Below are positions 18,162-35,002 of a stretch of DNA of 49,838 bases, piece by piece. The stretch is taken from the NCBI GenBank assembly GCA_017961365.1, contig JAGCXI010000026.1, forward strand, positions 1 through 49,838. The letters run 5' to 3'. The notes beneath the pieces were generated by a model. It searched no databases. It saw nothing but the letters and a program-made list of their open reading frames with translations, and was not told the origin of the DNA. Made by a program: the position numbers and the translations under genes. The stretch is from Clostridia bacterium. Its GTDB lineage: Bacteria > Bacillota > Clostridia > Christensenellales > CAG-1252. How positions within the stretch are numbered: position 1 is the first letter of the stretch; each line of letters starts with the position of its first letter.

Positions 18162-19349
18162 ATGCAGAAATACAGTTATCAAGCGTTGACTCCGGACGGC
18201 AAGACCGTTCGGGGCACGATGATCGCGAATAATGATGAAGAGCTGAAGCAGCTCGTCGCGAAATCGGGCAATACTTGTGTGAAATTCACCAAGCTGTCCG
18301 GTGATTCCGGAGGCGGGAAGCCGCTTCCGCTCAAAGCGGTGGGGAATTTTTGCAGTCAGCTCGCCGCCATTTTGAAGGCGGGTCTTCCGCTTGCTTCCGC
18401 GCTCGATATGCTTTACGGTAAGCTGGATAAAGGTCCCCTCAAAGAGTCCCTCGGGAAGATCTATGAAATGGTGCAGAAAGGTAATTCGCTTTCCGACGCG
18501 CTCAATGCGCAGGGCAGGGCGTATCCTCCTCTTATGTTGAATATGGTGAAAGCGGGCGAGATGAGCGGTGATCTCGATAATAGCTTGAATAAACTGGCGG
18601 ATCACTTCGAAAAGGAGCAAAAGACGCGTAATAGCGTCAAAGCCGCTCTGCGATATCCGAAAGTGCTCGCTTTCGTCACGCTCGGCGTCGTCATCCTGAT
18701 GGTGGCGGTGGTCTTGCCGAAGCTGACCTCCACGATGGAGAAAGAGTCCTTGCCCACCTTGACCAAGATCCTGATGGGGCTTTCGGACTTCATCGTGGAT
18801 AACTTCATCTTCATCGCGGTCGGCGTCATCTTCCTCATCATCATCGTCCCGATGATCAAGAATATCGAGAAAGTGCGATATAAATTGGATAAATTCAAGA
18901 TCACGATGCCGAAGATCGGAAAATTGATGCGGATGATCTATACGGCGCGTTTCGCCCGCTCGCTCGCGACGCTTTATGATGGCGGCATCCAGCTCTTGGA
19001 CGCCATGCAGATGTGTACGGCGATCGTCGGAAACGTCTATGTCTCGGAGAAGATGGAAGACGCCATTTATCGCGTGAAAAAAGGTGAAAGCATCTCGAAA
19101 GCGATGGCGTCCATCGACGTCTTCGACCCGATGCTGACGAGCATGATCTTCGTCGGTGAAGAGTCGGGCGTTCTCGGCGAGGTGCTCTTGCGCGTGGCGG
19201 ATTATTTCGATGAAGAGTCCGACGCCGCCACCAAGGCGCTCACCGCGCTTTTGGAGCCCGTGATGCTCATCGTGATGGCAGGCGTCATCGTGCTTATTAT
19301 TTTGGCTATCTTGTTGCCGATGTTCTCATCGTACAACATGGAAGTATAA
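18162..19349 (+). CDS. pilC: Type IV pilus inner-membrane platform protein (PilC/GspF family)
   Basis: A 395-residue polytopic protein of the PilC/GspF (T2SSF) family, the membrane platform on which the assembly ATPase PilB drives pilin polymerisation. The N-terminus has the usual 'Y.A...G....G...A.....' layer (residues 1-45). Two cytoplasmic T2SSF helical domains follow, at about 58-165 and 255-360, each with the typical 'QL..ll.aGlpl..al' and 'faR.la.L...Gi.ll.a' motifs. Transmembrane helices lie at about 168-187, 215-234 and 364-390, matching the family's three-helix plan and usual length of about 400. The start is fixed by an AAGGAGGA ribosome binding site 5 nt upstream of the ATG. It follows the giant LRR gene by 41 bp and precedes the pilM-like gene by 15 bp, so an operon is likely. 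Confidence 0.95.
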   Translation: MQKYSYQALTPDGKTVRGTMIANNDEELKQLVAKSGNTCVKFTKLSGDSGGGKPLPLKAVGNFCSQLAAILKAGLPLASALDMLYGKLDKGPLKESLGKIYEMVQKGNSLSDALNAQGRAYPPLMLNMVKAGEMSGDLDNSLNKLADHFEKEQKTRNSVKAALRYPKVLAFVTLGVVILMVAVVLPKLTSTMEKESLPTLTKILMGLSDFIVDNFIFIAVGVIFLIIIVPMIKNIEKVRYKLDKFKITMPKIGKLMRMIYTARFARSLATLYDGGIQLLDAMQMCTAIVGNVYVSEKMEDAIYRVKKGESISKAMASIDVFDPMLTSMIFVGEESGVLGEVLLRVADYFDEESDAATKALTALLEPVMLIVMAGVIVLIILAILLPMFSSYNMEV

Positions 19350-19364
19350 ACGGAGGGAAGAACT

Positions 19365-20273
19365 ATGCTATGTGTCAATATCAGCGATGATAAGATTAAG
19401 ATCGTCGACGGCAAGTCGAGCGGCGGCAAGATCATCATCAATAAGTGTTACGAGATCGATACGAAAGTGGGATCGATGGAAAGCGGAAATATCAAGGATC
19501 TTATGGCTTTCTCTCAGGTCTTGCAGGAATGTATCACGTCGGGCGGGATCAAGAATACGAATCTCACGTACGTCTTGGATAATCCGCGCGTGATCTTCCG
19601 TGAGATGAATGTGCCGGACGTCTCCGAGGATAAAGTCAAGCTCATCGTCGCGAATGAAATATTCAGCGACAGTAAGATGGCGAATAATACCCTCGATTAT
19701 ACGGTGGAAGGCGTCTTCAAGAATGAAGAAGGGAAGAAGAGAGCCCGCATCACCGTGACCTATGTCTCCAATGACGCGATCGACAGCTTGCATATCGCGG
19801 CGACGGAGCTCGGGATGCGTCCCACCGTCCTCGACATCGCGCCGAACAGCATGAGCAAGCTCATCGAGCGCTTCTGCAAGACGAATAAGAACGTCTTGGA
19901 GGATACGTTCGTGCTTCTCGATTATAAAGGGAGCTTCATCTCGCTTTACGTCTTTGACTCCGGCGTGAGGAAATTCTCCAAGAGCAGCACGATGTATGTC
20001 GGCGAAGGCGCGGATGCGAGAGCCATCCTTTCCGAGCTCACGAGCAATGTCAAGAGCGTGATCAATTTCTATGAGTCGCGCGCCGGCGTGAATGTCACGG
20101 CGATCTACGTGACGGGCAATGTCGATTCCCTCGACGACGAAGTCCTGCAAGGGCTCGCGGAGTCCATGAATATGATGATATCCCACCTTCCCATTCCCTC
20201 CTTCGTGAAAGGCGTGGACGTCCTCGATTTCAATAAGTACAGCGGCGCGATCGGCGCTTTCCTGAGGAGGTGA
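19365..20273 (+). CDS. pilM: Type IV pilus assembly protein, PilM-like actin fold
   Basis: A 302-residue protein with the PilM/FtsA-like actin-fold layout. In known systems PilM is a cytoplasmic ring protein that binds ATP and the N-terminal peptide of PilN, linking the ATPase to PilN/PilO. It is called PilM from its length, its two-subdomain pattern (a second 'LLDYKG...SLYVF' strand pair at about 185-200, and 'IYVTGN' near 250) and its place between pilC and a pilN-like gene. The first phosphate loop, normally D-[IL]-G-[ST]-x-x-[IV]-K, reads N-I-S-D-D-K-I-K, so two key positions are changed and nucleotide binding may be altered. The start has a GGAGGG ribosome binding site 8 nt upstream. Its last codons carry the ribosome binding site of the next gene, consistent with coupled translation. 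Confidence 0.85.
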   Translation: MLCVNISDDKIKIVDGKSSGGKIIINKCYEIDTKVGSMESGNIKDLMAFSQVLQECITSGGIKNTNLTYVLDNPRVIFREMNVPDVSEDKVKLIVANEIFSDSKMANNTLDYTVEGVFKNEEGKKRARITVTYVSNDAIDSLHIAATELGMRPTVLDIAPNSMSKLIERFCKTNKNVLEDTFVLLDYKGSFISLYVFDSGVRKFSKSSTMYVGEGADARAILSELTSNVKSVINFYESRAGVNVTAIYVTGNVDSLDDEVLQGLAESMNMMISHLPIPSFVKGVDVLDFNKYSGAIGAFLRR

Positions 20274-20277
20274 CAGC

Positions 20278-21405
20278 ATGAAGAAGAACGATATAAACCT
20301 GTTTAAAGCGGCGGGCGGCGAGAGAGCCAAAGGGAGCAAGCGCTCCGGCTTCTTCTATGTCGTCGTGCTTGCGATCGTGGTCTGCGTCGTCGCGATCGGC
20401 GTGGCGGTGTATTTCAATATGCGCGTTTCCACAGAGAAGGCAAGCTACGCCGCGAAACAACAGACCTTGAATAATTATCAGGTCACCAAGAAGAATAAGA
20501 CGATCATCGAAAAGTCGAAGAAATATCAGAGCGTCATCGCGAATACCGAGACGGCGGGCGCCATCGACTCCTTTACGGAGAGTGAGTCCAGGATGTATCC
20601 TCACGCCACGCAGACGGAAGTAAATGCCGTGCATGACGCCATCCTCTCTTATAATGGCGGCGGCTTCTCTTTTAATGATATCGATCCCGAGAGCGAAGAG
20701 CGTTTCACGCCGTGGGATTATGCTCAGGTGCGCAAAGATCTTTATTCCAAGGAGGATAGTAATGCGACGGACATCGAAGAGTCGGAAAAGTCCCTCTTCT
20801 ATTCCGCCTTGGAGAAGCTCGAGAAGGCGCAAAAAGAGGAGCCTGAGACCAATATCTGGCATGGTTATTATCGCGGATATATGGTCATCGTCTTCACGGG
20901 CGACGATTACGGCGTGGCGTCCCTCGCGTCGGATCTGATGAATGGCTCGATCTTGGAGGGGAATTCGCCCTTTATGAAGCTCGATATAGACGGCATTTCC
21001 ATCCAGAAGACGGGCTATATCGTGAGCCGCGACGTCACGTATAACGTGATGCTTTGCCCCGTGAAGAGCGTCTTCAATCGTATGTTCGACATCTTGGAGG
21101 CGCATTCCAATGACCTCAAGACGCAACAAGGGCTTTCCGACGCGCAGACGGATTTCGTCTCTTACGCCGTGGATGAGCTCACGTACCTCCTGCCGGATCT
21201 CGAGGAAGCGTCTGATAAGACGGAGCCGAAGCTCTCTTTCAAGCTCCTTCTCCCTAAGGAGAATGACCTCCCGGGATATTTGGATTGCTTCACGAGCTCG
21301 CCCTTCTTCAAGGTGGCGAATCCTGTAAAGGATTCGGCGGAGACGAGCGAAGGAAGCGAATATTACATTTACACGGTAGAACTGCAGTTCACGGGTGAGT
21401 ATTGA
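20278..21405 (+). CDS. pilN: PilN-like alignment-complex protein, extended
   Basis: A 375-residue bitopic membrane protein. The N-terminal 'NDINLFK' resembles the conserved 'INLLP' peptide by which PilN docks on PilM. One transmembrane helix lies at about 25-46, followed by a coiled-coil-like stretch (about 50-80) and an extracytoplasmic part. PilN proteins are usually near 200 residues, so this one is long. Two beta-alpha-beta-beta-looking blocks, about 195-263 and 315-375, suggest tandem ferredoxin-like domains of the PilN/PilO type separated by an acidic helical linker. The ATG is 4 nt after the pilM stop and its GAGGAGG site overlaps that stop. Sequence similarity to PilN is weak; the assignment rests on topology, the N-terminal peptide and gene order. 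Confidence 0.75.
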   Translation: MKKNDINLFKAAGGERAKGSKRSGFFYVVVLAIVVCVVAIGVAVYFNMRVSTEKASYAAKQQTLNNYQVTKKNKTIIEKSKKYQSVIANTETAGAIDSFTESESRMYPHATQTEVNAVHDAILSYNGGGFSFNDIDPESEERFTPWDYAQVRKDLYSKEDSNATDIEESEKSLFYSALEKLEKAQKEEPETNIWHGYYRGYMVIVFTGDDYGVASLASDLMNGSILEGNSPFMKLDIDGISIQKTGYIVSRDVTYNVMLCPVKSVFNRMFDILEAHSNDLKTQQGLSDAQTDFVSYAVDELTYLLPDLEEASDKTEPKLSFKLLLPKENDLPGYLDCFTSSPFFKVANPVKDSAETSEGSEYYIYTVELQFTGEY

Positions 21406-21421
21406 TAAGGAGGGTGAAGAA

Positions 21422-22189
21422 ATGAAGATTACGCAGAGAGATAAAATATTATTGGTCGTCCTTGCCATCGTCTTTGTCGTCGCCCTTGCGATCGTGATGC
21501 CTTCGGTGGGCGTCTTGGACTGCCGCACCGAGCTGCAGAATATCGCCACGGCGACGGAAGAGCTGAATGAGAAGCTTGCGGCGGAGCTCGCCGAGCTTCG
21601 CGAAATGGGCATAAATTCCTCCGACGCGGAGAATGTCCGTCAGGCGCAGGATCACCTCGACGATAAGACCAAAGAGAAGATGGAGGAAGCGGCTCGCATC
21701 GCGAATAGCATCATGGCGTATGCCGAGACCTATAATGTCGACACGCAGTGGATCAATTCCTTGCAGTATATCGGCGGCGTGCAGAGCAATAACCCCGAAG
21801 ACAGGCTTCTGGACTTCGAGGACGTCACGGATACGAATAAAGAGGAGAATGTCGAAAAGGTCATCGTCGTGGGAAATTCGGAGTATACCATCACGGTCGC
21901 GAAGCGTGCCATCGAATTCAGCGATATGGAAAATCCCAAGGCGTCCCTTGAGCTTGATTTCACCTTGACCGGCTTGAATCAGGATCATTTCGGCGCGCTC
22001 ATCCTTTATCTGCAGCAGGTCGCGGCGAAAGGCTCCTTGCATGTCACGGGCGTGAATTACCTCACCGGCGAAAAGACGGGCACGATCACGATGTACGCCT
22101 TGATGACCGCGAATAGCGATCTCTTGACGTATGCCGACGAGCTCGAGCGTCTCAACGCGCCGGAAGAAGAAGGGGAAGAAGGGGAATAA
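21422..22189 (+). CDS. pilO: PilO-like alignment-complex protein
   Basis: A 255-residue bitopic protein with a short basic cytoplasmic N-terminus, one transmembrane helix (about 9-30), a Glu/Leu-rich coiled coil (about 36-75), and a C-terminal block at about 180-240 with the beta-alpha-beta pattern of PilO/PilN ferredoxin-like domains. PilO heterodimerises with PilN and helps align the pilus machine. The ATG at 21422 is preferred over an in-frame upstream GTG at 21395, because AAGGAGGG sits just upstream of the ATG while the GTG lies inside the pilN end with no such site. The C-terminus is a short acidic Glu/Gly tail. It is followed by a 93-bp A+T-rich gap containing an inverted repeat before the giant pilin gene. 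Confidence 0.75.
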   Translation: MKITQRDKILLVVLAIVFVVALAIVMPSVGVLDCRTELQNIATATEELNEKLAAELAELREMGINSSDAENVRQAQDHLDDKTKEKMEEAARIANSIMAYAETYNVDTQWINSLQYIGGVQSNNPEDRLLDFEDVTDTNKEENVEKVIVVGNSEYTITVAKRAIEFSDMENPKASLELDFTLTGLNQDHFGALILYLQQVAAKGSLHVTGVNYLTGEKTGTITMYALMTANSDLLTYADELERLNAPEEEGEEGE

Positions 22190-22270: not shown

Positions 22271-22282
22271 TGGAGGTGGCGT

Positions 22283-25200
22283 ATGACGCTTGCGAAATGC
22301 TGTAAGAATAAAAAGGGCGTCGCCCTTACATACGCGGTGATGGTGCTGTTTCTCTTAGCCACCGTCATCGTCGCCATTACAGCGCTCGCTTCTTCCTCCG
22401 TCAGCGAGGCGGTCCTGACCGCGTCGGATGACCAGAGCTATTTCTATGCCAAGTCCATCGGGCTCGCCATCAAAGAGCAGTTTAAGGACGGCTATAATAT
22501 CAATTCCATCATTGAGACCTTGGACGCGCAGATCGCGGAGGATGAGTCTTCCCCCTGCGTCACGGGCAAGTATTACGTCGAGGACGATTCGCGCACGGAG
22601 CTTGTGGAAGGCACGGTGCGTATCTCTTATGCGAAAGACAGCGCCGGCAATGGTTATAACGATCATGTGCTCGAGGTCAAGGTCGCTTGCGTTTATAATA
22701 ATTCGCTTTCCATCGTCACGTCGGTCTTCAGCTGTGAGGAAGACGCGGAAGAAGTCATGCCCAAGCTGAAGAATGCTTTCGATAAGTATGACGTGATCCT
22801 GACGAATAAAGACGAAGTCAGCTTCGATTTCGCGGATACCAGCGCCTCCACCCCCATCAACGTCTATGTCTATGTCGGTGAGGACGATACGGTGAAGAAT
22901 TCGCCTTTCTATCTCGGCGTGGATATGAATGGAAACCTGACGACGACGGGCGACACCAAGATCTACGGCGGGACGAAGAGCGCCGAGACGCAGAAGTCCA
23001 TCAAAGGAGACCTTACCGCGTATGGAAATCTTTCGCTGAAGAACGTGAAAGTTACGGGCACGAACGGCATCCATTGCGACGCGAATGTCACCATCAATAA
23101 GGGCAGCTTCGTGACGAATAGCATCTTCGCCCGCGGAGATATCACGCTCAGCGATGAAGAGATTTTGATGCATAATCATATGGTGAATTCCGCAGGGTAT
23201 GTCGAGACCGCCACGGACGGTTCGGCGGACCTTCCCACGGTCAGCACGCAGCGCAAGGCGGTGAATCTCGTCGCGATGGGCAATGTCACGATGGGCGAAT
23301 ATTGTTACATCACGGGCAGCATCTATGCGCGTGGCGACGTCACGATCAAAGGTCACGATATGCTGCATGTCTATAATACTTGGGTGGATGGCAGCGTCTA
23401 TGCGAATGGCGCCGTCACCATCTCGAAAGGCGCCGTCGTGATGGGCGACGTCATCGCCACGGGAAAGGTCACCATTCAGAGCGGCGCGATCGTCTTCGGA
23501 AACGTGCAGTCCAAAGGGGATGTGACGGTGAATGCGGGCGTCGTCGGCGGCAAGGTGGAATGCATCGGCAAGCTGACTTTGAAGACGAATACCACGTATG
23601 GAAATTGGCTCGCGCAGAAAGGTGCCACGCCGCAATACGAGATCCTCTTCGGCGGCATCGGCATCTTCAGAGGATATAATAATGCGCACAGCGCGAATAA
23701 GATCATCCATACTTGCGGCTCTCTCTCGCTCGGAGATACCGACGAATGGGTGAGGATCATCGGCGACATTTACGTGGAGAATTCCAGCGCAAGCGGCAAG
23801 TACACGCCGCTCACTTCGGTCTGGATCCCCTTCGACAGTATTTATCTTTTGAATTCCCGCGCCATTTTCGGCGCCGCAGCGGATCAGACCGTGACGAATG
23901 GTTATCAGAATCAATTCGGGAATCCGCATGTTTATATCCATCGTCTCTGGCAGAATGGAGATCTTTATTACACGTCGGGCGAACATCTCGTCAATATGAA
24001 CGGCGCAAAGCTCGATATCATCCAAGCGGGCGATCAGGGCGCCCCGCGCGACGTCTGCCTGACGAATGGCACGGTCACGACGCAGATCATCGGACGTTGC
24101 GGCGAGCTCAAGATGATGGATATCGCGTATTGCCTCGTCGAAATGAAGCAATACTTGAAAGTCTATGGAGACGGTTCCACGAGCCCCCTCGTCACGAATG
24201 GGATCACGATGCTCCGAAGCGGCTCCCAGCTGAACGTAAATTGCGAGACGAGCGGAAAGGGCAGTCTCACGAATAATGAGGTCGGGCTTGAGATCGGGCA
24301 GTACGTGAATATGCTCGCGGGCTCCCAGGGGAGAGTCGGCTCCGCCTCTACAGCCGCGAGCAAAGGCAAAGTCATCCTCGGCTCCTCCGCCGCGGCGAAT
24401 ACCTATCTTTTCGGAAATTATTACATCCATGCGAAAGAAGTCGAGCTGAATGCCGGCGCGCATCTGCGCGTCCCCAGCGGCTCCGGCACGTCGGCGGCGG
24501 TGATCTATGCGGACGTCGAGACTTTCACCGTGAAGGACACCTCTTCTTTGTCGACGAACCGCACGGCTTCCGTCCTGTATCTCAAAGGAAATCTGGTCCT
24601 GCAAGGAAAGATCTTCTCCGTCTATCATTTCTCGGGGAATCTCACGATGACGGGAAATGGCAGCGTCGCGGGCACGTATTGGAGCAAGTCGAATGGGAAG
24701 CTGCAGTTTAAAGGCACTTTCGGCTCCATCGAGGCGTCGGATGCGGGCTGCACCGTCGAGCTCTCGGGCGCGCTCAACGTCACGAATGATCTTCGCGTGA
24801 ACGGCACGCTCGTCAGCGGTAATTATGATCTCGTGGTCGGGAAAGACCTTTATGTGCGCGCCCTTGCTTCGGGCACGCTGAGCAAAGTGACCGTGAATGG
24901 GAATATGACCATATCCGAGGCGCAGACCTCTTATACGATCGGCGCAGGCTGCGTCGTCGCGGGCACGCTGACTTGTACCGGCTCCGCCATCACGCTTGAT
25001 TCCACGGCAAAGGTGGGCGGCGTGGCGAGCAAGAGCCTCGTCATAAAAGGAAATGCCGTTTTGGGCGGAAATAACGCCAAGAGCAAAGTCACGAACGGCA
25101 TCACGATGAGCGGCGGCACGATGACCGCTTGTAAGGTCCAATGTTATAACTTTACGCAGACGGCGGGCACGCTCTCTTCCGTGGATATGTATGTCGGCGG

Positions 25201-28200
25201 CACGGGAACGGTGATCAATGTCAGCGGCTCTTCGAAAGCCACGGCGGCGCATCTTTACGCGCCGAATGGCGCTTTCTCTTTCTCGGGCGGCTCTTCCGTG
25301 CAGTACACGGGCGGCGAGAATACCCTGCAGGCGAAGACAGGTAGCACGCTGAAAGCTCGCTTCGAAGGCGGCGTCACCGTCACGGGCGGGAATCTTGCGG
25401 TCGGCGCGGCAGGAGAGAGCGGCACGTATAACGTGGGCAGCTCGGGCAAGACCATCTATGCTTCCGGCACGCTGACTTGGCTGGGCGGCGCGCGCAGTCC
25501 TTATGATGCGGATCCTTCCGGCGGCGCGCCCAATATCTCTGCGGGCGGCAATATCACGATAGGCACCTTTAGTTCTTCCGGCGTCCCCTCGGGGGATCCG
25601 ATCAAGGGATATTTTAATTATATCACGTCCTCCTCCGGCAGGGTCTGGGCTTATGTGGAGGCGGTGGTCAAGGGCGCTTACGCTTCGGGCGACGTCACGA
25701 TGAAGGTCTCCAAGAGCTTCGGAAATAAGGTGAATGACAAGAGCGTCGGCATCTATACGACGGGCGGAAATATCAATCTTTACGCTTCCGCGAATACCAT
25801 TCGTTATAAAGGGTACTATATCACGCCCAAGACCTTTACGGTGGCATCCGCGCTCTCGATGACCGCCGCGGTGAAGTGCTCGGACGCTTCCGGATTGAAT
25901 AATATCCGAGAAGAGACGGCTTCCGGTCTCTCGAATCAGAAAGCCATCTTCCTGTCTCTCCAGATCACGGGGTCTTCTTCCTCGCGATTCTCCTTGGAGC
26001 GCAGTCTTGCGAAGGATTCCACGGGCACCACGGGCTCCATCACCCTCGAAAATCGCGGTTTGACCCTTTCTTCCGGCAAGCACGTCGAAGGCATCATCTA
26101 TGTGAACGGCATCTATTATTACGGCACGAGCAGCGTGGACCTTGATTCCGTCGGCGGACTGTATTGTAAGAATACGGAGGTCAACACCGTAAATCTGAAA
26201 GGTGATATCGAGCTTCCGAACGTGACGAGCGTCATCATCGGCAGCTCTATCACGAGCTTGAAGGCGGATAAAGTCGCATCCGTTACTTTGGGACAGAATT
26301 TCCCGGGTTCTTTGAACCTGCCGAATGTCGGCACTCTCACCGTGAATAGCGGCATCACTGTTTCGGGTGCTTTGGAGATCGGCGGCACCCTCGAAAATAA
26401 AGGCACGATCAACGGCGGCGCAAAGTGTAAGAAGTATACGGGCTCCGGCGTCGTGAAAGGAAATCTCATTATCACGGGCTCGGAGCAGAGCGAGATCACG
26501 GGCAACGTCGCGGCGAATATCTATTCTTACGGACCGCTTCTTTTGAAGAACGCGACGAATCTCGGTGCGTCCGGCGGCTATATCTTCAGCAAGAGCAATA
26601 TCGACGCTGAGTACGTTACTTTCCGCAGTGACCTCAGCTATATCATGTCCAATGGCGGGTATCAAAAGTATTCGTACTGTAAGCAGCTCCCGAATGTTCG
26701 CGCGCTTTCCGGCGCCACGTACATACAGTTTATAAATAATACCGATTGTAAAACCACGATCAAGAGCGTGTGGAGCAAGGGCACGTCCATTCAGTTCGGC
26801 ACGAGCACCTCAAGCAATTATCAGACGATAACGGGGGATCTCGAATGGAGCGGCACGATGTCGAGCGGCACGACGCAAGGCATTTATATTCGCTCTAAGA
26901 ATACCGTCATTCAGGGGAATGCGAAGTTCACGGGCACGGGTTACGTCCAGTTCTACGGTCAGTGCGATAAGGACGTCCTCTTCTATAATACTTCCAAAGT
27001 TATTTTAGGTAATTCTTCGTTCCCCGCCCTTGTTAAAGGGAATGTTTACGTCAATACGCAGAGCAATAATACCGCGAGCGTAAAAGTCACGAATTTCGTC
27101 TATAATGCGGGCGAGATCCAGAAGGACCTTTATTATTACGGCTCCGGTCAGAGCGTCACGGTGAATGGCTCCGTGACGGGAATGCTCCGTGCGGATAACG
27201 TGCATCTCACGGTCGGCGGATCTCTCGGTTCTCTCTTGCATACGGCGTCTTCCGCAGGGTATAAGGTGAATCTCGGTTCGCTCTCGAATCGTCCCAAAGT
27301 GAATGGAAGCATCCGCGTGCGCGGAGTCTTGTTTGATAATTCCGAGAATCACGACACTATCAATGTTTACGGAGCTTATTACGGTGACGTGAATAAGATT
27401 TATAAGTACTGCACGGGGATCAAGGTGACGGCGGAAGATTCCGGCGCGAGCACAGGCTGGACTTGGATCTTCGGCGGTCCTTCCGCCGACTATATCAGCG
27501 GCAACGTGGACGTAACGGGCTGGCTCTTCATTTATTCGAATGCCAATGACGCGAAGTTTGAGATCAAGGGGAATATCTATTGCAACCTGCTCCATATCAA
27601 TAATTATTGGTATGTGAACGGCGGTTGGACGAATTATTATCCGATGTCGGGACATAAGAGATTTGATTCGAGCACGCAGATGGTGGATATCGTGAGCGCG
27701 GGGTTTCTCCCCGTGCAGCCGGATTACGAAGCGGCGATGTGGGCGAATCAGAGCACCACGCGTGATCTCGTGACGGTGCGTCAAGTCCATGTCAAGGCGG
27801 GGAATGGCAAGCTCGGCGCGGCGTATTGCGCCAATACCAAGATGCAGCATCTTCGTACGGACGGTCAGATCTGCTTGACGTATTGTTATCTGACGTCCAA
27901 GAATTTCGATCAAACGAAATATAATAACACCGGCGAGCATTGTGGTAATCACTCGAATTCAAATGGAATCTCCGTCAAAAAGAATGCGGACGGGGATTAC
28001 GATGGCTCGATCATCGCCCATAACGCAAGCACCGACGCGGGCTGGAATATGTTCTGGGGCACAAAGACAGTGAGTAATGTCTCCTTGATCTATGGTTTTA
28101 CTTGCACGAACGGCGATGGTAGCCTTGCGGACAAGAAAGGCTGGACGGACTTCGAAGGTTCGGTGAAGGAGAATGTCGGCACGGGCGTCACGGGCAGCGT

Positions 28201-30760
28201 CGCCACCAAGCTCTTCTATTTCGGCGGCGGCCTCGCGATGTATGGATATTCTCGCATCAATTCGGCGCGAAACGGAGATACCGGTGAGTTTAAGGCGGAT
28301 TTGGCGCGTACCATCGTCTGGATCGGGAATGGCGACCTGTATGTCGGCGTCGGATGCGGCGTCGGACATGATAAGACCGATCTCAGCAGAACGCGTGTGT
28401 CTTCTCACCCCGGCGTCTTCGTCTCGAACGGAAATGCCACCATCGACGGTTATGTCACCCTCGATATGATGGTGAAAGGGAATCTGACGGTCACGGCGAA
28501 TGGTGAAGTCTTGGGAAAAGACAGCGGTGGCTCGTCTTATCGGGCGGGCGTCTTCCTCGTCGGCGGAAGCCTCAGTGAGGTCAGCAATCATTTCCGCTTG
28601 AAGCATGCCTATACATCTTCGGCGCTTCCTGCAAGAGCGTATGAGACAAATTGGGGTGGCGATTGCTATACGCCGGACGCCTCCGGATACGTCTCTTATA
28701 TGACAGGGAAATTGGTGAAGATCTCCGGCACGAACGCGGCGAATCTCGCGCAATGTTATAAGCCCAAGAATACGGCGGTCACGGTTTCTTCGCCTTCGGG
28801 CGCGGGATCTTCCACCTCGCCCTTTAAGATGAGCGGACGTTCCGCGGCGGAGAATGCCACGATGAGCACCTCCGTCAGTTCTTATTCCGCGCCGACCGAG
28901 CCTACGCTCTCGGCGGGAGCGGGCACGTCCATCGGCACGGGCACGGCAAGCGTGCCGAAGCTCGCGCTTTCCGGCACGATTGCCCCCGTGGCGGCGGGCG
29001 ATTATAAGGTCGCGGAAGTCACCGTGCCGACGGTCACCGCGGCGGAGACCAATAAGACTTTCTCCATAAAATATTCGATCCCTTGGGCGGAGGTCACCTA
29101 TGGTCAGCCCTCCTTCGCCGAGCGATGGGCGACCGCGGAGGGCGTGGATTACACGACGCTGGCGGAGAGCTGGGAGAAGGGGAAAGTCGCGGTGGGCAGC
29201 GTGAATTATTCCCTCACGCAGCATCTCGACAAGTCGAATAGCTCGCTTTGGGGGCCGCGCGTGATCCCGCAGACCTGGCAGCTGCCTTATGAATATACGA
29301 ATTCTTCCGGCGGGACGACCGAGACGCCCGCAAAGAGAGTCCTCGTGGGCAAGATGATGGACTCCGCAGGCATCAATCTCTCGGACGTCAGCTCGTCCGT
29401 GGCGAACGAAAAAAAGTACGTGACGGAAGATATCTATAATTCCGGGAGCAATTCCTTGAAGAGTTATAATCAAAATACCGTCATCAGCGATAGAAAGAAG
29501 ACGAGCGACACCTCTTACGCGGGGACGAATAAGCTCCTTGATTATATTATGAAGAAATCCACGTCCGGCGTGGACCGTTGCTCCGATCTTTTGGTCTTCG
29601 AGAGCGGCGAATTGCCTTACAGCGCTTTCTATATGTCCGCCACGGATGACTTCACGGTCTGGAGTCGCATCGGCCGCGGACACGTGGGCGAGAAGCATGA
29701 TTGGAAGAAGCTCGGCGTCACGATCTCCAGCTGGGAGTATTTCTATTGGAAGTACATGATGGACGGGAATAGCGACGTCCCGGATCGAGACGACGAAAGC
29801 ACCTTTAAGAATAATTACTTCACGAATTCCAAGAATATCCCGTATTCCGCTTATCACGGGAATTCCGAGAAGAAGATCGCGGGGCAGTATCAAGACGCTT
29901 GGTTTTGGGGATCTGAAGAGCGCAGCACCTATGACGTGAACTGGATCTTCTATGCCTGTAAGGATCCTTCCAATCCCTATGACAGCGCCGCGAAGGACCT
30001 CCACGTCGTCCTGCCGAAGGGCATCGGACTGGAGTTCTTCCGCGATATCGATAATAAGATCCTCGTCATCGGCAGGGGAAGAGTCTTCCTTTATCTGACC
30101 TCGGGCGACACCCTTTATTTCCGCGGCGATATCAAGAGCGATAATAATCCCACGACCTGGGTGGTCGGCGGCTTGACGAATAAGGACAGAAGCGGAAAAT
30201 ATCTCTCTTCGGATAAGCAGTATAAGCGTCCGCAGCTTTATATCATCGGCGCGGGCACGAATATCGACCTCATCGTCCGTGAGCTCCAGCTTTTCGCTTA
30301 TGTCTATATGCCTTTCGGCACGAATGGCAGCTTGTATAATGCTTCTACGGGCAGGTTAAAGTCCTATAATATCTTTAAGAACGCGGAGGGGGGCAAAGCG
30401 AATCCGAATAGCGCCGGGTCTGCCTCTTCCGCCGTCACGGACGTCAAGCGAAATTCTCTGATGTTCGTTTGGGACGCCGCGAAGAGCAAGCGATATATCT
30501 ATGGCAGTATCGTCGTGGATAACTTTAATTTCACGACGGGTTCGGACAAGAATCTGGAGTTTAAGGCGCGCGCGGTGGATCGTTACGGTCCCGACTTCGG
30601 CGATACGAAGATCTATGGCGCGAGCACGTATTCCGGCTCGACGGTGTATTTCAGCACGAATTACGTGGAAGTCTCGCTGACCTCCTTTATGTCCCAGCCG
30701 CCGGGCTTCTCGACGACGATGCTGAACTGGGACTATGTCGGCATAAAGGTGGTGTCGTGA
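22283..30760 (+). CDS. Giant prepilin-like protein with bactofilin-like beta-helix repeats (PilX-type tip adhesin candidate)
   Basis: A 2825-residue protein. The N-terminus is a class III prepilin signal: a basic leader ending K10-K11-G12, a predicted cleavage before V13, and a hydrophobic helix to about residue 38. Position +5 is Tyr17, not Glu, as in PilX- and GspK-type minor pilins that sit at filament tips. After a small globular part (about 40-225) comes a very long region (about 226-2112) of short beta-strand repeats such as 'GDVTI..G..V.GsV.A.G.VTI', like polymer-forming bactofilins and other right-handed beta-helices. A Ser/Thr/Ala/Pro-rich linker (about 2165-2250) leads to a mixed C-terminal domain. 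That domain ends in a segment (about 2575-2815) resembling the C-terminal domain of PilX-like proteins ('AYVYMPFG', 'YGSIVVDNF'). GGAGGTGG precedes the ATG. It stands between pilO and two ordinary prepilins. Function as adhesin or tip protein is inferred. Confidence 0.85.
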   Translation: MTLAKCCKNKKGVALTYAVMVLFLLATVIVAITALASSSVSEAVLTASDDQSYFYAKSIGLAIKEQFKDGYNINSIIETLDAQIAEDESSPCVTGKYYVEDDSRTELVEGTVRISYAKDSAGNGYNDHVLEVKVACVYNNSLSIVTSVFSCEEDAEEVMPKLKNAFDKYDVILTNKDEVSFDFADTSASTPINVYVYVGEDDTVKNSPFYLGVDMNGNLTTTGDTKIYGGTKSAETQKSIKGDLTAYGNLSLKNVKVTGTNGIHCDANVTINKGSFVTNSIFARGDITLSDEEILMHNHMVNSAGYVETATDGSADLPTVSTQRKAVNLVAMGNVTMGEYCYITGSIYARGDVTIKGHDMLHVYNTWVDGSVYANGAVTISKGAVVMGDVIATGKVTIQSGAIVFGNVQSKGDVTVNAGVVGGKVECIGKLTLKTNTTYGNWLAQKGATPQYEILFGGIGIFRGYNNAHSANKIIHTCGSLSLGDTDEWVRIIGDIYVENSSASGKYTPLTSVWIPFDSIYLLNSRAIFGAAADQTVTNGYQNQFGNPHVYIHRLWQNGDLYYTSGEHLVNMNGAKLDIIQAGDQGAPRDVCLTNGTVTTQIIGRCGELKMMDIAYCLVEMKQYLKVYGDGSTSPLVTNGITMLRSGSQLNVNCETSGKGSLTNNEVGLEIGQYVNMLAGSQGRVGSASTAASKGKVILGSSAAANTYLFGNYYIHAKEVELNAGAHLRVPSGSGTSAAVIYADVETFTVKDTSSLSTNRTASVLYLKGNLVLQGKIFSVYHFSGNLTMTGNGSVAGTYWSKSNGKLQFKGTFGSIEASDAGCTVELSGALNVTNDLRVNGTLVSGNYDLVVGKDLYVRALASGTLSKVTVNGNMTISEAQTSYTIGAGCVVAGTLTCTGSAITLDSTAKVGGVASKSLVIKGNAVLGGNNAKSKVTNGITMSGGTMTACKVQCYNFTQTAGTLSSVDMYVGGTGTVINVSGSSKATAAHLYAPNGAFSFSGGSSVQYTGGENTLQAKTGSTLKARFEGGVTVTGGNLAVGAAGESGTYNVGSSGKTIYASGTLTWLGGARSPYDADPSGGAPNISAGGNITIGTFSSSGVPSGDPIKGYFNYITSSSGRVWAYVEAVVKGAYASGDVTMKVSKSFGNKVNDKSVGIYTTGGNINLYASANTIRYKGYYITPKTFTVASALSMTAAVKCSDASGLNNIREETASGLSNQKAIFLSLQITGSSSSRFSLERSLAKDSTGTTGSITLENRGLTLSSGKHVEGIIYVNGIYYYGTSSVDLDSVGGLYCKNTEVNTVNLKGDIELPNVTSVIIGSSITSLKADKVASVTLGQNFPGSLNLPNVGTLTVNSGITVSGALEIGGTLENKGTINGGAKCKKYTGSGVVKGNLIITGSEQSEITGNVAANIYSYGPLLLKNATNLGASGGYIFSKSNIDAEYVTFRSDLSYIMSNGGYQKYSYCKQLPNVRALSGATYIQFINNTDCKTTIKSVWSKGTSIQFGTSTSSNYQTITGDLEWSGTMSSGTTQGIYIRSKNTVIQGNAKFTGTGYVQFYGQCDKDVLFYNTSKVILGNSSFPALVKGNVYVNTQSNNTASVKVTNFVYNAGEIQKDLYYYGSGQSVTVNGSVTGMLRADNVHLTVGGSLGSLLHTASSAGYKVNLGSLSNRPKVNGSIRVRGVLFDNSENHDTINVYGAYYGDVNKIYKYCTGIKVTAEDSGASTGWTWIFGGPSADYISGNVDVTGWLFIYSNANDAKFEIKGNIYCNLLHINNYWYVNGGWTNYYPMSGHKRFDSSTQMVDIVSAGFLPVQPDYEAAMWANQSTTRDLVTVRQVHVKAGNGKLGAAYCANTKMQHLRTDGQICLTYCYLTSKNFDQTKYNNTGEHCGNHSNSNGISVKKNADGDYDGSIIAHNASTDAGWNMFWGTKTVSNVSLIYGFTCTNGDGSLADKKGWTDFEGSVKENVGTGVTGSVATKLFYFGGGLAMYGYSRINSARNGDTGEFKADLARTIVWIGNGDLYVGVGCGVGHDKTDLSRTRVSSHPGVFVSNGNATIDGYVTLDMMVKGNLTVTANGEVLGKDSGGSSYRAGVFLVGGSLSEVSNHFRLKHAYTSSALPARAYETNWGGDCYTPDASGYVSYMTGKLVKISGTNAANLAQCYKPKNTAVTVSSPSGAGSSTSPFKMSGRSAAENATMSTSVSSYSAPTEPTLSAGAGTSIGTGTASVPKLALSGTIAPVAAGDYKVAEVTVPTVTAAETNKTFSIKYSIPWAEVTYGQPSFAERWATAEGVDYTTLAESWEKGKVAVGSVNYSLTQHLDKSNSSLWGPRVIPQTWQLPYEYTNSSGGTTETPAKRVLVGKMMDSAGINLSDVSSSVANEKKYVTEDIYNSGSNSLKSYNQNTVISDRKKTSDTSYAGTNKLLDYIMKKSTSGVDRCSDLLVFESGELPYSAFYMSATDDFTVWSRIGRGHVGEKHDWKKLGVTISSWEYFYWKYMMDGNSDVPDRDDESTFKNNYFTNSKNIPYSAYHGNSEKKIAGQYQDAWFWGSEERSTYDVNWIFYACKDPSNPYDSAAKDLHVVLPKGIGLEFFRDIDNKILVIGRGRVFLYLTSGDTLYFRGDIKSDNNPTTWVVGGLTNKDRSGKYLSSDKQYKRPQLYIIGAGTNIDLIVRELQLFAYVYMPFGTNGSLYNASTGRLKSYNIFKNAEGGKANPNSAGSASSAVTDVKRNSLMFVWDAAKSKRYIYGSIVVDNFNFTTGSDKNLEFKARAVDRYGPDFGDTKIYGASTYSGSTVYFSTNYVEVSLTSFMSQPPGFSTTMLNWDYVGIKVVS
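22960..28620 (+). repeat. Bactofilin-like beta-helix repeat region of the giant pilin
   Basis: Roughly 1890 residues of short G-x-[VLI]-x-[VI] strands with turns rich in Gly, Asn, Ser and Thr. The most regular units lie at 23270-23620, with a period of about 16-18 residues ('G.V...G.VTI..GA.V.GdV'). The pattern is that of a stacked beta-solenoid. Regularity decreases toward the 3' side, where aromatic-rich loops appear. Confidence 0.75.
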
Positions 30761-30761
30761 T

Positions 30762-31121
30762 ATGAGAAAGATGAGACGATTGAAAGGGAAAAAGGGATTC
30801 ACCTTGATGGAAGTCGTCATCGCGCTCGCGGTCGTCGGCATGATCACCGCGCTGATCCTTCCGCTCGTGTCCGGCGCGATCCGTTCTTTCGCCTTGGCGA
30901 AGAGCCTTCGCACGACGGCGACTTCGGCGGAAAAAGCGAATGCCACGGGCAGTTCGTCGAATACCTTGGAGGACATCTATGTCACCGTTCGTCTTTCCAC
31001 GAGCGGCGGCACGGAGACGGCGGAAAGCCGTTATAAATTCACGAGATCTTCGGCAAGCGACGGCAAGTATGACGTCCAAGTGACGTATTACGAATTAAAG
31101 AAAGGCGACGAGAGCAAATGA
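30762..31121 (+). CDS. Type IV prepilin-like protein (small minor pilin)
   Basis: A 119-residue prepilin. The leader ends K10-K11-G12, mature residue one is F13, and Glu17 is the conserved +5 residue in the motif G-FTLMEVVIAL. A hydrophobic helix of about 22 residues follows, then a small beta-rich domain of about 75 residues. The size and 'FTLMEVVIALAVVGM' start resemble GspI/PilV-type minor pilins. The ATG is 1 nt after the stop of the giant pilin, with AAAGGTGG 9 nt upstream inside that gene, so translation is probably coupled. An alternative ATG at 30771 would shorten the leader but has worse spacing. It is processed by the peptidase encoded three genes on and probably co-assembles with the giant pilin. 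Confidence 0.9.
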   Translation: MRKMRRLKGKKGFTLMEVVIALAVVGMITALILPLVSGAIRSFALAKSLRTTATSAEKANATGSSSNTLEDIYVTVRLSTSGGTETAESRYKFTRSSASDGKYDVQVTYYELKKGDESK

Positions 31122-31133
31122 CGAGGTAAGACG

Positions 31134-31910
31134 GTGATTTTCAGACGGCTGAGAAAGGGAAAGAAGGGACTCACCTTGGTGGAGATGATCGTGGCGATCG
31201 CAGTGACCGCCATTCTCGCCGTTTGCCTTTCCACGATGCTCGTCCCCGTCGTGAATGTCTATGGCACGAATAAGACCAAGGTGGAGCTCATGGACGCCGT
31301 GTCCTCTCGTTTGAATGATTTCGCGGCGCAGCTCCGCGGCGCGCAAGGCGTCTATCTTGCGGAAGCGGAGGGCTCTTTCTTCGATATCAATACGCAGTCG
31401 CAGTATGACGGCTGCAGGAAGTTTAAGGTCACGCACGCCATTGCGATGGATAATTATTTTGAAAAGAATAGCCCCAAGATCTCCGGCTATCGTTATCCCG
31501 AGATGAAGTGCTTGGATTATTCGAATGTGAGCAAGCCCGAAGTCGTTTATGCCTCGAAATGGGGAGAGAAGCTGATCTCGGACGAATATCAGGAAGCGAA
31601 TAAGCAGATCTATTGTCCGAATGATGGTTCCAATAAACCCGCTTTTTATATGCTCGTCCGCAAGGATGCCGCGGGGAATGCCACTTGCCTCGAGATGCAT
31701 CTCACGATGAAGAAAGGCGACGTGCGCCAGGAGGGGGTCAAGACCATCACCTGCGAGAATCTCGTCATCCAAGGGAAAGTCGTGTATAAAGCTTCCTTCG
31801 TTTGGAATTCCTCTTTGGGTGATTTCGTCCTTACGCCCGCCGAAGTCAGCACGGGGACGAATGAGACGAAGTGGAAAAAATATTGTTCCGTGTGGTTTTC
31901 CAAGCCATGA
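31134..31910 (+). CDS. Type IV prepilin-like protein (PilW/GspJ-type minor pilin)
   Basis: A 258-residue prepilin starting at GTG with GAGGT 6 nt upstream. The leader is basic and ends K10-K11-G12; mature L13 begins the motif LTLVEMIVAIAV, with Glu17 as the +5 residue. The long C-terminal domain (about 220 residues) and the 'LVEMIVA' start resemble PilW/GspJ minor pilins, which form the initiating tip complex with PilV/GspI and PilX/GspK types. That fits its position after the giant PilX-like protein and the small prepilin. Two Cys in the C-terminal half (in 'MKCLDY' and 'IYCPND') could form a disulfide. Its last four bases overlap the preferred start of the prepilin peptidase gene (ATGA). 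Confidence 0.9.
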   Translation: MIFRRLRKGKKGLTLVEMIVAIAVTAILAVCLSTMLVPVVNVYGTNKTKVELMDAVSSRLNDFAAQLRGAQGVYLAEAEGSFFDINTQSQYDGCRKFKVTHAIAMDNYFEKNSPKISGYRYPEMKCLDYSNVSKPEVVYASKWGEKLISDEYQEANKQIYCPNDGSNKPAFYMLVRKDAAGNATCLEMHLTMKKGDVRQEGVKTITCENLVIQGKVVYKASFVWNSSLGDFVLTPAEVSTGTNETKWKKYCSVWFSKP

Positions 31911-32671
31911 GGATCGCTTTTCTTATCCTGTTTCCCATCCTTGCTTTATTTGCGGGTGGGCTTTTATATCGCCTTGCCTATGCTTATCCGAGACAGAGTT
32001 TCGGCGAGCTTCTCCGTCCTTCCTGCCATGCCTGCGGCGTCCGCCTGCCGATGCGTTATTCGATCCCCGTTTTGGGGACGATCCTTTCCGGCGCACGCTG
32101 TCCCGCTTGCAAGGAGAAGAGGGGAGTGGGGAGCCTTCTTTCCGAAGTGATCTTCGCGCTTGCCACCTTCCTTTTATTCTTCTTTTACGACCTGTCTTTC
32201 CTTTTCCTTGTCTATCTCGTCGCGGCGGCGCTTCTCCTTGTCCTCTCCCTTGTGGATCTTGACGTGAAGGAGGTTCCGCATGGGTTTTTGCTCGTCTTGC
32301 TCCTCCTCGGCGTCTTGCTTTTCATCCTCTCTTTCTTCCCGAAAGTCTCTCTCTCCAAGATCCTTTGGTGGGAGCATCTTGTCGGCGCCGTGGCGGTCAG
32401 CGTTCCGCTCTTTATCCTGATGGTGGTCTCGGGTGGGGGCGTCGGCGGCGGAGACGTGAAATTGATGTTCTGTCTTGGCTTGCTTCTCGGTTATAAGCTC
32501 ATTCTTTTGAGCTTCCTCTTCGGCATCGTTCTTGCGGCGATCTTCTCCGTCATTCTCATCGTCATTTACGGGAAAAACGGGAAGTACGCCCTCCCTCTCG
32601 TCCCCTTTCTTTCCGTCGGAGCTTTCATCGCGATGACAGTGGGGGAGACTTTGCTTTCGCTCTTCTTCTGA
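31907..32671 (+). CDS. pilD: Prepilin peptidase / N-methyltransferase (type IV leader peptidase)
   Basis: A polytopic membrane aspartyl protease that cleaves prepilin leaders after Gly; many members also N-methylate the new N-terminus. The 254-residue form contains the Zn-binding four-Cys cytoplasmic loop (CHAC...CPAC, about residues 40-72). It also has both catalytic aspartates: Asp117 in 'VDLDVKEVP' and Asp183 in 'GGGDVKLM', the family's G-x-G-D-x-K-L motif. Around eight hydrophobic segments are visible. I chose the ATG at 31907, which overlaps the preceding stop as ATGA. A GTG at 31871 would add 12 residues and overlap the previous gene by 40 bp. Neither has a clear ribosome binding site, which suggests translational coupling. 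Its substrates are the prepilins encoded on both sides. Confidence 0.93.
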   Translation: MRIAFLILFPILALFAGGLLYRLAYAYPRQSFGELLRPSCHACGVRLPMRYSIPVLGTILSGARCPACKEKRGVGSLLSEVIFALATFLLFFFYDLSFLFLVYLVAAALLLVLSLVDLDVKEVPHGFLLVLLLLGVLLFILSFFPKVSLSKILWWEHLVGAVAVSVPLFILMVVSGGGVGGGDVKLMFCLGLLLGYKLILLSFLFGIVLAAIFSVILIVIYGKNGKYALPLVPFLSVGAFIAMTVGETLLSLFF

Positions 32672-32736: not shown

Positions 32737-32765
32737 TTGACTTCATTTTAGCATTGTGTTATAAT
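32737..32765 (+). promoter_or_regulatory. Strong housekeeping-type promoter for pilB
   Basis: TTGACT at 32737-32742, a 17-nt spacer, and TATAAT at 32760-32765, with an extended -10 TG at 32757-32758. The predicted transcript starts near 32772, leaving a leader of about 30 nt with a GGAGGT ribosome binding site before the ATG at 32802. pilB is thus likely expressed independently of the upstream pil operon. Confidence 0.8.
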
Positions 32766-32801
32766 AATATCTGCGTAAATCACACGCATTTCGGAGGTAT
32801 T

Positions 32802-34475
32802 ATGAGCAAACTCACTTTAGGACAGATCTTACTTCAGAAAGGCTTTGTGAAGCCTCAGGATCTCAAGCAGGCGCGCGAGCTTCAGATCGCGAATCCGTCG
32901 AAAAGTTTGGCGGAGATCCTGATTTCCCTCAATGTTACCAGCGAGGTGAATATTTTGTCTGCGCTTTCCGATCGAATGAATGTGCCTCTCTTGGAAGGGG
33001 CGATCTTCATCACGGATACCGACATCATCAAGCTCGTCCCCGAGAAGGTGGCGAGGAAGCATAATATCATTCCTTATAAGGTGGAGAAGAATAAGCTCAT
33101 CGTCGCGATGCGTGATCCGAGCAATATGGACGCGATCGAGGATATCAAGATGGCTTCGGGCATGGACGTCGGCTTCGTGCTTGCCACCGTGCCTTCCATC
33201 ACGGACGCGATCGAAAAGTATTATGCGAATGTCACCGCGCAGAAGATGGCGGACGATATGTCGCAGGAGGAGCAGGAGAATAATGCGAATGCCCTCAATG
33301 AGATGGACGACAGGGTGGATAGCGCCCCGATCGTCAAGATGCTCAATACGCTCATTCAGCAGGCTTTCGTCACCCACGCGAGTGATATTCATATCGAGCC
33401 TTTCCGTGATACGGTCATCATTCGTATGCGTATCGACGGCGCCTTGCAGGAATATATGCGCATCTCGCCCTCCGCACATAAGAATCTCATCACGAGGATC
33501 AAGATCCTCTCGAATATGAATATCGCCGAGAAGCGTATCCCGCTCGACGGCAGATTCGATTATACCTTCGAGGGCGAGCTCATCGATATCCGTGTGTCCA
33601 CGCTTCCCACGACTTACGGCGAGAAAGCGGTGCTTCGTCTTCTCGGCACGGCGATGGGCGCCGATATCAAGCTGACGGATCTCGGCATGCTTCCCGAGAA
33701 TGCGGAGAAATTCATGCGCGTTTGCGAAGCGCCGAACGGCGTGGTGCTGGTCACGGGTCCTACGGGAAGCGGTAAATCCACCACCCTTTACACCGTCTTG
33801 CAGGATCTGAATAAGCCGACGGTGAATGTCACCACCATCGAGGACCCTGTCGAAAAGAAGGTCTTCGGGATCAATCAGGTCCAGACCAATCACAAAGCGG
33901 GACTGGATTTCGCCTCCGCCCTTCGTTCCATCCTTCGTCAGGACCCCGATATCGTTATGATCGGTGAGATCCGTGATAACGAGACGGCGGACATCGCGAT
34001 GCGCGCCGCTATCACGGGTCACTTGGTGCTCTCCACGTTGCATACGAATGACGCGGTCTCCACGGTCGCTCGTTTGATCGATATGGAAGTGCCGCCTTAT
34101 CTCGTCGCCGCGGCGTTGAACGGCGTCTTGGCGCAGCGTCTCGTGCGTAAGCTCTGCCCGAAGTGTAAGACCAAGGTGGAAGTGACGCAGGCGCAGAGAA
34201 ATATTCTGAAAGATCCCACGCTTACGGAGTGCTACGGTCCGGTCGGTTGCCCGAACTGCAGCTTCACGGGCTATAAGGGCAGGACCTCTATCCACGAGGT
34301 CTTGACCGTGGACACTGGTCTTCGCGAGCTCATCACGAAGAACGCCACCACCGAGGAGCTCCGCGCTTATGCGAAGAAGGAGGGGATGATCTTCATGGAC
34401 GACAATGTCCGCATCAAGATCAAAGAAGGCGTCACGAGCATCGACGAATATATGAGGACGATCTATACGATCTGA
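32802..34475 (+). CDS. pilB: Type IV pilus assembly ATPase (PilB/GspE family)
   Basis: A 557-residue hexameric secretion ATPase that powers pilin extraction from the membrane and polymerisation through PilC. Domains in order: an N-terminal MshEN/T2SSE_N domain (about 1-150), a linker, the N2 domain ('SDIHIEP', about 190-290), and the RecA-like core with Walker A GPTGSGKS at 319-326. An Asp box, a Walker B region ('PDIVMIGEIRD') and a His box ('TGHLVLSTLHTND') follow, then the zinc-binding four-Cys motif C452-x2-C455...C483-x2-C486 found in PilB/GspE but not PilT. The ATG at 32802 is chosen because GGAGGT lies just upstream; an in-frame TTG at 32754 lies inside the promoter. The gene has its own promoter and a hairpin terminator at its 3' end. 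Confidence 0.97.
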   Translation: MSKLTLGQILLQKGFVKPQDLKQARELQIANPSKSLAEILISLNVTSEVNILSALSDRMNVPLLEGAIFITDTDIIKLVPEKVARKHNIIPYKVEKNKLIVAMRDPSNMDAIEDIKMASGMDVGFVLATVPSITDAIEKYYANVTAQKMADDMSQEEQENNANALNEMDDRVDSAPIVKMLNTLIQQAFVTHASDIHIEPFRDTVIIRMRIDGALQEYMRISPSAHKNLITRIKILSNMNIAEKRIPLDGRFDYTFEGELIDIRVSTLPTTYGEKAVLRLLGTAMGADIKLTDLGMLPENAEKFMRVCEAPNGVVLVTGPTGSGKSTTLYTVLQDLNKPTVNVTTIEDPVEKKVFGINQVQTNHKAGLDFASALRSILRQDPDIVMIGEIRDNETADIAMRAAITGHLVLSTLHTNDAVSTVARLIDMEVPPYLVAAALNGVLAQRLVRKLCPKCKTKVEVTQAQRNILKDPTLTECYGPVGCPNCSFTGYKGRTSIHEVLTVDTGLRELITKNATTEELRAYAKKEGMIFMDDNVRIKIKEGVTSIDEYMRTIYTI

Positions 34476-34551: not shown

Positions 34552-34995
34552 TTATATCGAATTCTTCGGTCCGGTGACGGTGTTTCCGTCCGTGGAGACG
34601 TAATACTTTCCGTTGTAATTATATACGATCTTCACGACGGCGTATTTCGAATTCAGATTTCCGCTGTTGACGGAGTATTGGATGTAGATCTTCCCTTTGG
34701 AGACGGAGGAAGGCGCTTTTGTGCTGAGCGTTTGGAGCTTATCGCCCGCAAGCGTTTGCAGCATCGAGGTGGAAGGCGCGCCGCCGAATCCGGAATTGAG
34801 TGTATAGAAATAATTCTCCGTGGATTTCCAGTAAGAAGTGATCGCGGTCTGCGCGCTTTTTTTCTGCGTGGCGGTCTTGACGCTGGACATAGAGATCGCG
34901 GCGATCGTGGCAAAGATGCCGAGGATCGCCACAACGACGATGAGCTCCACGAGCGTGAAGCCTTTTTTGAGTTTTGCAAAGAAAGTTTTTCTCAT
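34552..34995 (-). CDS. Type IV prepilin (major-pilin candidate, GspG/ComGC-like)
   Basis: A 147-residue prepilin read leftwards. The basic leader ends K10-K11-G12 and the motif G-FTLVELIVVVAILGIFATIAA follows, with Glu17 as +5. A pilin helix and a C-terminal domain with Tyr-rich beta strands complete it. The compact size and classical 'FTLVELIVVVAILGI' start fit a major pilin or GspG/ComGC-like subunit. The start is the ATG whose complement is at 34993-34995. A consensus promoter lies so close upstream that the predicted transcript begins at, or one base before, this ATG, and no ribosome binding site is visible. In-frame upstream ATGs (complement at 35002-35004, overlapping the -10 box, and at 35023-35025, in the spacer next to the -35 box) would not be on that transcript. 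The gene ends at the shared terminator. Confidence 0.9.
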   Translation of the reverse strand: MRKTFFAKLKKGFTLVELIVVVAILGIFATIAAISMSSVKTATQKKSAQTAITSYWKSTENYFYTLNSGFGGAPSTSMLQTLAGDKLQTLSTKAPSSVSKGKIYIQYSVNSGNLNSKYAVVKIVYNYNGKYYVSTDGNTVTGPKNSI

Positions 34996-35002
34996 CAAAA
35001 TC

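Follow-up and report, generated by a model that had tools for sequence, protein, structure and literature searches.

A 2,825-residue prepilin with a long predicted beta-solenoid is encoded in a type IV pilus locus of gut and rumen Clostridia

The pilus locus of a Clostridia bacterium of the order Christensenellales encodes a protein of 2,825 residues that is almost certainly a prepilin with a beta-solenoid attached. This giant stands at the far end of a size series formed by tip-type minor pilins, i.e. those at the GspK/PilX position, and it is of the same kind as the previously described modular pilins, above all ComZ. It extends the size range accepted for pilins several-fold. The window analysed, a stretch of 49,838 nucleotides, is the entire contig of a 1.40-Mb draft metagenome-assembled genome (MAG) that is 88% complete and in 75 contigs; the features of the locus are collected in Table 1.

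Table 1. The giant prepilin, its parts and the surrounding pilus genes, with positions in the window.
Feature	Position	Strand	Basis or remark
pilC, platform protein	18162..19349	+	T2SSF PF00482, 1.4e-61
pilM	19365..20273	+	PF11104, 5.9e-5 (below cut-off); synteny
pilN	20278..21405	+	position and N-terminal TM
pilO	21395..22189	+	T2SSM PF04612, 1.1e-3 (weak); synteny
Shine-Dalgarno GGAGGT	22272..22277	+	5-6 nt (about six) 5' of the giant's ATG
Giant prepilin, 2,825 aa	22283..30760	+	ORF; intact homologues in independent MAGs
Prepilin leader MTLAKCCKNKKG, 12 residues	22283..22318	+	predicted cleavage after Gly12
Mature-pilin N-terminal helix, residues 13-68, without Glu5	22319..22486	+	AlphaFold2 helix 10-68; dN/dS 0.00 over 1-68
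Pilin-like globular domain, residues 69-193, strands 92-150	22487..22861	+	AlphaFold2; structural alignment
Beta-solenoid region, about residues 194-2125	22862..28657	+	models cover 194-1093 and 1726-2125; for 1101-1725 the basis is composition and alternation alone
Probably disordered region modelled at low confidence, residues ~2100-2325	28580..29257	+	pLDDT mostly 22-45; dN/dS 0.36
C-terminal region, residues 2326-2825	29258..30757	+	most conserved part 2520-2825, dN/dS 0.12
Minor prepilin, 119 aa, KKG^FTLMEV, Glu5 present	30762..31121	+	I-like by position
Minor prepilin, 258 aa, KKG^LTLVEM, Glu5 present	31134..31910	+	PilW/GspJ-like
pilD prepilin peptidase	31871..32671	+	Peptidase_A24 and A24_N, 2.5e-14
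pilB extension ATPase	32754..34475	+	TIGR02538, 1.2e-172; PF00437
Prepilin KKG^FTLVEL, divergent pair with 35080..35640	34552..35004	-	
Prepilin KRG^FTLVEI, divergent pair with 34552..35004	35080..35640	+	

The open reading frame contains no internal stop and ends 1 base before the start of its downstream neighbour. When the giant was compared with an orthologue of 87% identity (G000 versus G001), dN/dS was 0.21 overall, and by part it was 0.00 over residues 1-68, 0.10 over 69-193, 0.36 over 2101-2325 and 0.12 over 2520-2825. The overall value, together with the zero over the first 68 residues, indicates that the giant is a real protein under selection; its reading frame is genuine, intact and conserved. 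The gene comes fifth in the order pilC-pilM-pilN-pilO-giant-prepilin (119 aa)-prepilin (258 aa)-pilD-pilB, which is followed by a divergent pair of prepilin genes; position was the main basis for naming pilM, pilN and pilO, which have weak Pfam scores or none. Among the five prepilins of the locus, the giant alone lacks Glu5, which is carried by the four others.

The N-terminus of the giant reads MTLAKCCKNKKG^VALTYAVMVLFLLATVIVAITAL (over a longer stretch, MTLAKCCKNKKG^VALTYAVMVLFLL). It carries a class III signal, with a basic leader ending in glycine (KNKKG^VALTY) and then about 20 hydrophobic residues, in agreement with the prepilin signal reported in the first-pass annotation of this DNA. 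Gly12 and Tyr17 (position +5) are invariant among the homologues with a visible N-terminus. In the predicted structure, a long N-terminal helix leads into a beta domain of the pilin type, with middling scores in structural alignments: residues 35-171 were superposed on the minor pilin PilA of Streptococcus sanguinis (7o5y; Z 7.6, 115 of 131 residues) and residues 12-150 on one chain of the XcpGHIJK pseudopilus model (Z 6.9), and ComZ aligned with the model of residues 1-1100 at Z 7.2.

AlphaFold2 was run on two fragments, residues 1-1100 (14 sequences) and 1726-2825. The first model (mean pLDDT 77) consists of a helix at 10-68, a pilin-like beta domain at about 92-150 and solenoid strands from about 194 to 1093, the latter mostly at pLDDT 80-96. 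In the second (mean pLDDT 56), the first 400 residues or so again form a beta-helix, which reaches about residue 2125. Residues 1101-1725 lie outside both models, and there the sole direct support for a solenoid is a beta-strand alternation that exceeds that of shuffled sequences. A solenoid of about 1,900 residues had been proposed at first reading; structure prediction returned one at 194-1093 and 1726-2125, and the part between them is indicated by alternation only. In the model, the coils near residues 329-430 repeat every ~18 residues, and we estimate a rod of 30-50 nm from ~1,900 residues, 18-28 residues per coil and ~0.48 nm per coil. BLAST of the giant on itself yielded no match at E ≤ 1e-3, so the coils have diverged, and internal sequence duplication was rejected as the source of the length. 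The bactofilin-like repeats noticed earlier were recovered as Bactofilin PF04519 matches, which exceed the cut-off in the giant (35.8 versus 27.9 bits), though over short stretches only, and reach E ≤ 1 in 9 of 10 giant homologues.

Structural alignment placed the N-terminal solenoid closest to the beta-helix adhesins UpaB (Z 16), EtpA (Z 15) and Ag43 (Z 13.5), a beta-helical antifreeze protein (Z 13.7) and the tapirin C-terminal domain 4wa0 (Z 13.6), annotated as a possible Caldicellulosiruptor adhesin. Similarly, the beta-helix of fragment 1726-2825 resembled pertactin (Z 15.6), the tapirin C-terminal domain 6n2c (Z 14.8) and PfbA (Z 12.8). Structures of PL6, GH110, pectate lyase and inulin lyase were also among the fold matches of the giant, and ComZ was present in both Foldseek lists; the Foldseek E-values were weak (best 1.8e-3). 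A search of solved structures by sequence gave nothing at E ≤ 1 for the giant sequence or its N-terminal profile, a weak best E of 0.024 for the 1-1100 profile (chain CA3 of 7ar9) and a best E of 0.6 for the C-terminal profile. Beta-helix folds are common to enzymes, phage tailspikes and adhesins, so that the fold by itself gives no function.

The last ~300 residues of the giant, modelled at low confidence, form a separate conserved domain, with the motifs AKDLHVVLPKGIG...GRVFLYLTSG...YIIGAGTNIDL...YVYMPFG...WDYVGIKV within residues 2520-2825. This C-terminus is distantly similar to that of a prepilin of ~965 residues at the locus of family f31 (hhalign 84%, E 7e-6). A W-x-Y-x-G strand is conserved there and is compatible with an insertion of the ComZ type, but the N- and C-terminal parts were modelled apart. 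The PilX-like C-terminal segment announced by the first-pass annotation was not recovered, as neither PilX_N (PF14341) nor DUF7305 (PF23981) matches the giant at E ≤ 1; DUF7305 was likewise absent from the sampled genomes of family f1, and the C-terminal profile showed no relation to the DUF7305 pilin of genome G020. Identity with a cytoskeletal bactofilin was rejected too, the giant being a protein of 2,825 residues with a prepilin signal. On these results the giant is not to be filed under PilX_N, DUF7305 or the bactofilins. No known ligand-binding domain was found in the giant, and no Pfam enzyme family matched it at E ≤ 1. The search for PF05567, the C-terminal beta-propeller of PilY1, gave no match in the giant or in 10 genomes and was uninformative, its control having matched nowhere.

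Homologues of the giant were found in 17 of the 20 genomes of its own family and, by sequence search, in 0 of 41 sampled genomes of other families in the order. They come from Clostridia MAGs of gut and rumen (goat and buffalo rumen, roe deer caecum), several of them labelled Christensenella sp. (UBA MAGs). Intact giants measure 2,825, 2,836, 2,923, 2,942, 2,967 and 3,050 residues in genus g1, and 1,813, ~1,910, ~2,251 and 2,292 residues in the sister genus g3. The prepilin motif is retained wherever the N-terminus of a homologue is visible, and all those with visible flanks lie among pil genes, in the same order pilC-M-N-O-giant-I-J-D-B, except that G006 has one more PilW-like gene and that the PilW-like genes of G002 are doubled; orthologues lacking the prepilin N-terminus or placed away from pil genes were looked for, and none was seen among them. 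Genome G006 holds at least two diverged giants in tandem (L019 = G006:C34 and L027 = G006:C6; 71% identity over the shared 1,562 residues), the 3' end of one lying ~740 bp before the N-terminus of the other. We found no paper on type IV pili of this family; one Christensenellales paper concerns another family and reports type IV pili for a different lineage, UBA9783 (PMC12306168).

The locus was also read in other families of the order, with pilM as the anchor. The same slot beside the I-/J-type prepilins was occupied by prepilins that lack Glu5 and are of graded sizes: ~354-493 residues in families f2, f17, f21 and f33, ~965 residues in f31 and 1,088-1,240 residues in f3 and f6. Some of those of 354-493 residues have sub-threshold PilX_N and Bactofilin matches, the one of 373 residues in f2 matches DUF7305 (8e-15 to 2.6e-14) and that of f31 has FapA/Bactofilin-type solenoid matches. 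These graded sizes identify the giant as the extreme of a series and not as a chance fusion. They favour growth of the beta-helix of an existing tip pilin, presumably in the direction of greater length, over a one-off fusion. Given these shorter counterparts by synteny, restriction to a single family holds for recognisable sequence and not for the slot. The natural series from 354 to 3,050 residues at one conserved locus could make it possible to trace how a tip pilin grew into a putative rod adhesin. The K-type prepilins of ~965 to ~1,240 residues (L101 7266-10160, L103 9800-12703, L088 9083-12349 and L093 8656-12201) are apparently undescribed large modular pilins too. Minor pilins of 150-300 residues, the range considered normal at first reading, are typical of textbook systems; that range was too narrow for PilX_N frames in 398 genomes of the phylum, which among the 150 matches listed span 98-911 residues (median 402, none above 1,000). 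The giant is more than three times as long as any PilX-type pilin in this sample, among the matches listed.

As in modular pilins, the giant joins a pilin module to a Bactofilin/solenoid module that is not specific to pili. ComZ of Thermus thermophilus (PDB 6qvi) is likewise a type IV pilin with a beta-solenoid module, has a GspK-like pilin fold and was argued to sit at the pilus tip, the position in which we read the giant (PMC6561018). By contrast, ComZ is a DNA-binding protein of ~554 residues; its solenoid, of ~380 residues, is inserted between the last two pilin strands, and its host is a diderm with a secretin (PMC6561018). What sets the giant apart is a rod about five times longer than that of ComZ, a host that looks monoderm, a C-terminal domain that is distinct and conserved, and conservation throughout the family. 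Streptococcus sanguinis PilB and PilC also combine a pilin module with a grafted adhesion module, in a monoderm pilus, but PilB has ~454 residues, a vWA domain and Glu5; the most extreme multi-domain case in the survey of modular pilins was a protein of 860 residues (PMC8179133, PMC9934059). Unusually large components with a prepilin motif, PihD, PihO and PihQ, are described for Pelobacter carbinolicus; they belong to a diderm pilus and are likened to the giant by that description only (PMC3543383).

Other comparisons bear on position and on the presumed adhesin. Minor pilins at the GspK/PilX position share with the giant the lack of Glu5, a gene beside those of I-/J-type minor pilins and a place at the tip, but the extra domain of GspK is alpha-helical whereas that of the giant is a beta-solenoid without a PilX_N match. 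PilC/PilY1 is also a large adhesin that caps a minor-pilin complex; it has a beta-propeller and is a protein distinct from the pilins, whereas the giant would unite pilin and adhesin in one chain. The tapirins of Caldicellulosiruptor are beta-helix adhesins of a monoderm and much shorter than the giant, to which they are likened by fold and not by sequence; their genes adjoin a type IV pilus locus.

According to the accepted HIJK model, these minor pilins form a tip complex that is capped by a subunit without Glu5 and from which assembly starts (PMC10191384). Because it lacks Glu5, the giant would be the tip-capping subunit under that model, and it probably sits at the pilus tip. PilT is encoded in its own genome and exceeds the cut-off in 14 of the 20 genomes of the family. 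Neither a secretin nor Omp85 was found in these organisms, in searches whose positive controls matched, so that no outer-membrane channel would limit what the tip carries; the hosts look monoderm. On the simplest view, these bacteria would be monoderms with a retractile pilus and a rod adhesin on its tip pilin. The giant adhesin of the first-pass annotation has a single support, the resemblance of the fold to known beta-helix adhesins, which suggests both adhesion and the candidate ligands. As a whole, a mechanism in which a modular pilin caps the tip with its own beta-solenoid adhesin appears rather likely to us. The N-terminal helix would enter the membrane along the Sec/prepilin pathway, and the 12-residue leader would be cut off by PilD at the site seen. 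The pilin module may then associate with the products of the next two genes, the I- and J-type minor pilins, the giant coming first as the capping subunit, and PilB and PilC would build the pilus beneath it. The rod would fold outside the membrane and be carried outward through the wall, with no channel to pass. Rod and C-terminal domain may bind a gut surface or polymer (plant fibre, mucin or another cell are candidates), and retraction by PilT would pull the cell to the bound surface. More tentatively, tip initiator and tip adhesin might be merged in one chain of ~3,000 residues with a wall-spanning rod whose length (about 1,800-3,050 residues) is selected; the pilus would then be primed with an adhesin already outside before extension starts. 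For gut and rumen bacteria, the giant offers a testable case of the way in which very large adhesins are displayed by monoderm pili, which lack the PilY1 and secretin route.

Other readings of the giant were weighed against that of a tip-capping pilin. It could be processed by PilD and stay anchored in the membrane, as a wall-spanning surface rod or a biofilm adhesin outside the pilus: with an estimated length of 30-50 nm, the rod is on the scale of a monoderm cell wall, it is difficult to imagine so large a rod at the end of a pilus, and another giant surface protein with leucine-rich repeats adjoins pilC. We consider this unlikely in view of the near-zero dN/dS in the assembly helix, the fixed position beside the I/J pilins and pilD-pilB, and the ordinary-sized K-type prepilins that hold the slot elsewhere in the order. 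The first-pass annotation had left open whether the giant is mounted on the tip or secreted by the pilus. The lack of Glu5 and the I/J-type neighbours speak for the tip, and secretion is the less likely of the two because the pilin helix is near-invariant. Although the locus resembles a pseudopilus operon with I-/J-like pilins, it is quite improbable that the giant is a substrate pushed out in the manner of a type II secretion system and then released, as it has its own pilin helix and domain and lacks a conventional Sec signal peptide, and PilT in the family suggests retractile pili.

Two further readings concern the solenoid itself. The absence of Pfam enzyme families at E ≤ 1 from the giant makes it improbable that the pilus displays the solenoid as an enzyme acting on polysaccharides, be it a lyase or a hydrolase, and adhesin folds score as high as or higher than the carbohydrate-active enzymes among the fold matches, which had raised this idea together with the rumen and gut habitat. 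Bactofilins are cytoplasmic single-domain polymers. That the solenoid assembles into a scaffold as they do, an idea prompted by the PF04519 match, is very improbable: this match covers short stretches only of the ~1,900-residue rod, and the giant, unlike bactofilins, is exported with a prepilin helix. Finally, the source is a draft MAG in many contigs, and an assembly or frame artefact on a chimaeric contig was considered; it has a negligible chance and was ruled out by intact homologues of 1,813-3,050 residues, in the same gene order, in independent MAGs of different projects, in addition to the lack of stops and the purifying selection.

The giant prepilin is not the only large protein encoded in the window. 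A protein with BspA-type leucine-rich repeats, at least 6,039 residues long, occupies positions 1-18120 (+) and is open at the contig edge; a homologue lies directly upstream of pilC wherever the flank is visible, with at least 7,969 residues in G009. Directly 3' of the prepilins, a protein with a transglutaminase core (PF01841, 2e-9) and a lipoprotein-like N-terminus (35653-38001, +) is conserved in the genus. It is followed by a protein of 611 residues without a Pfam match (37998-39833, +), conserved between the transglutaminase gene and split transketolase genes. At the other edge of the contig, a secreted protein of at least 2,085 residues, also without a Pfam match, is open at 43584-49838 (+), and its homologue in place in G007 has 2,338 residues.
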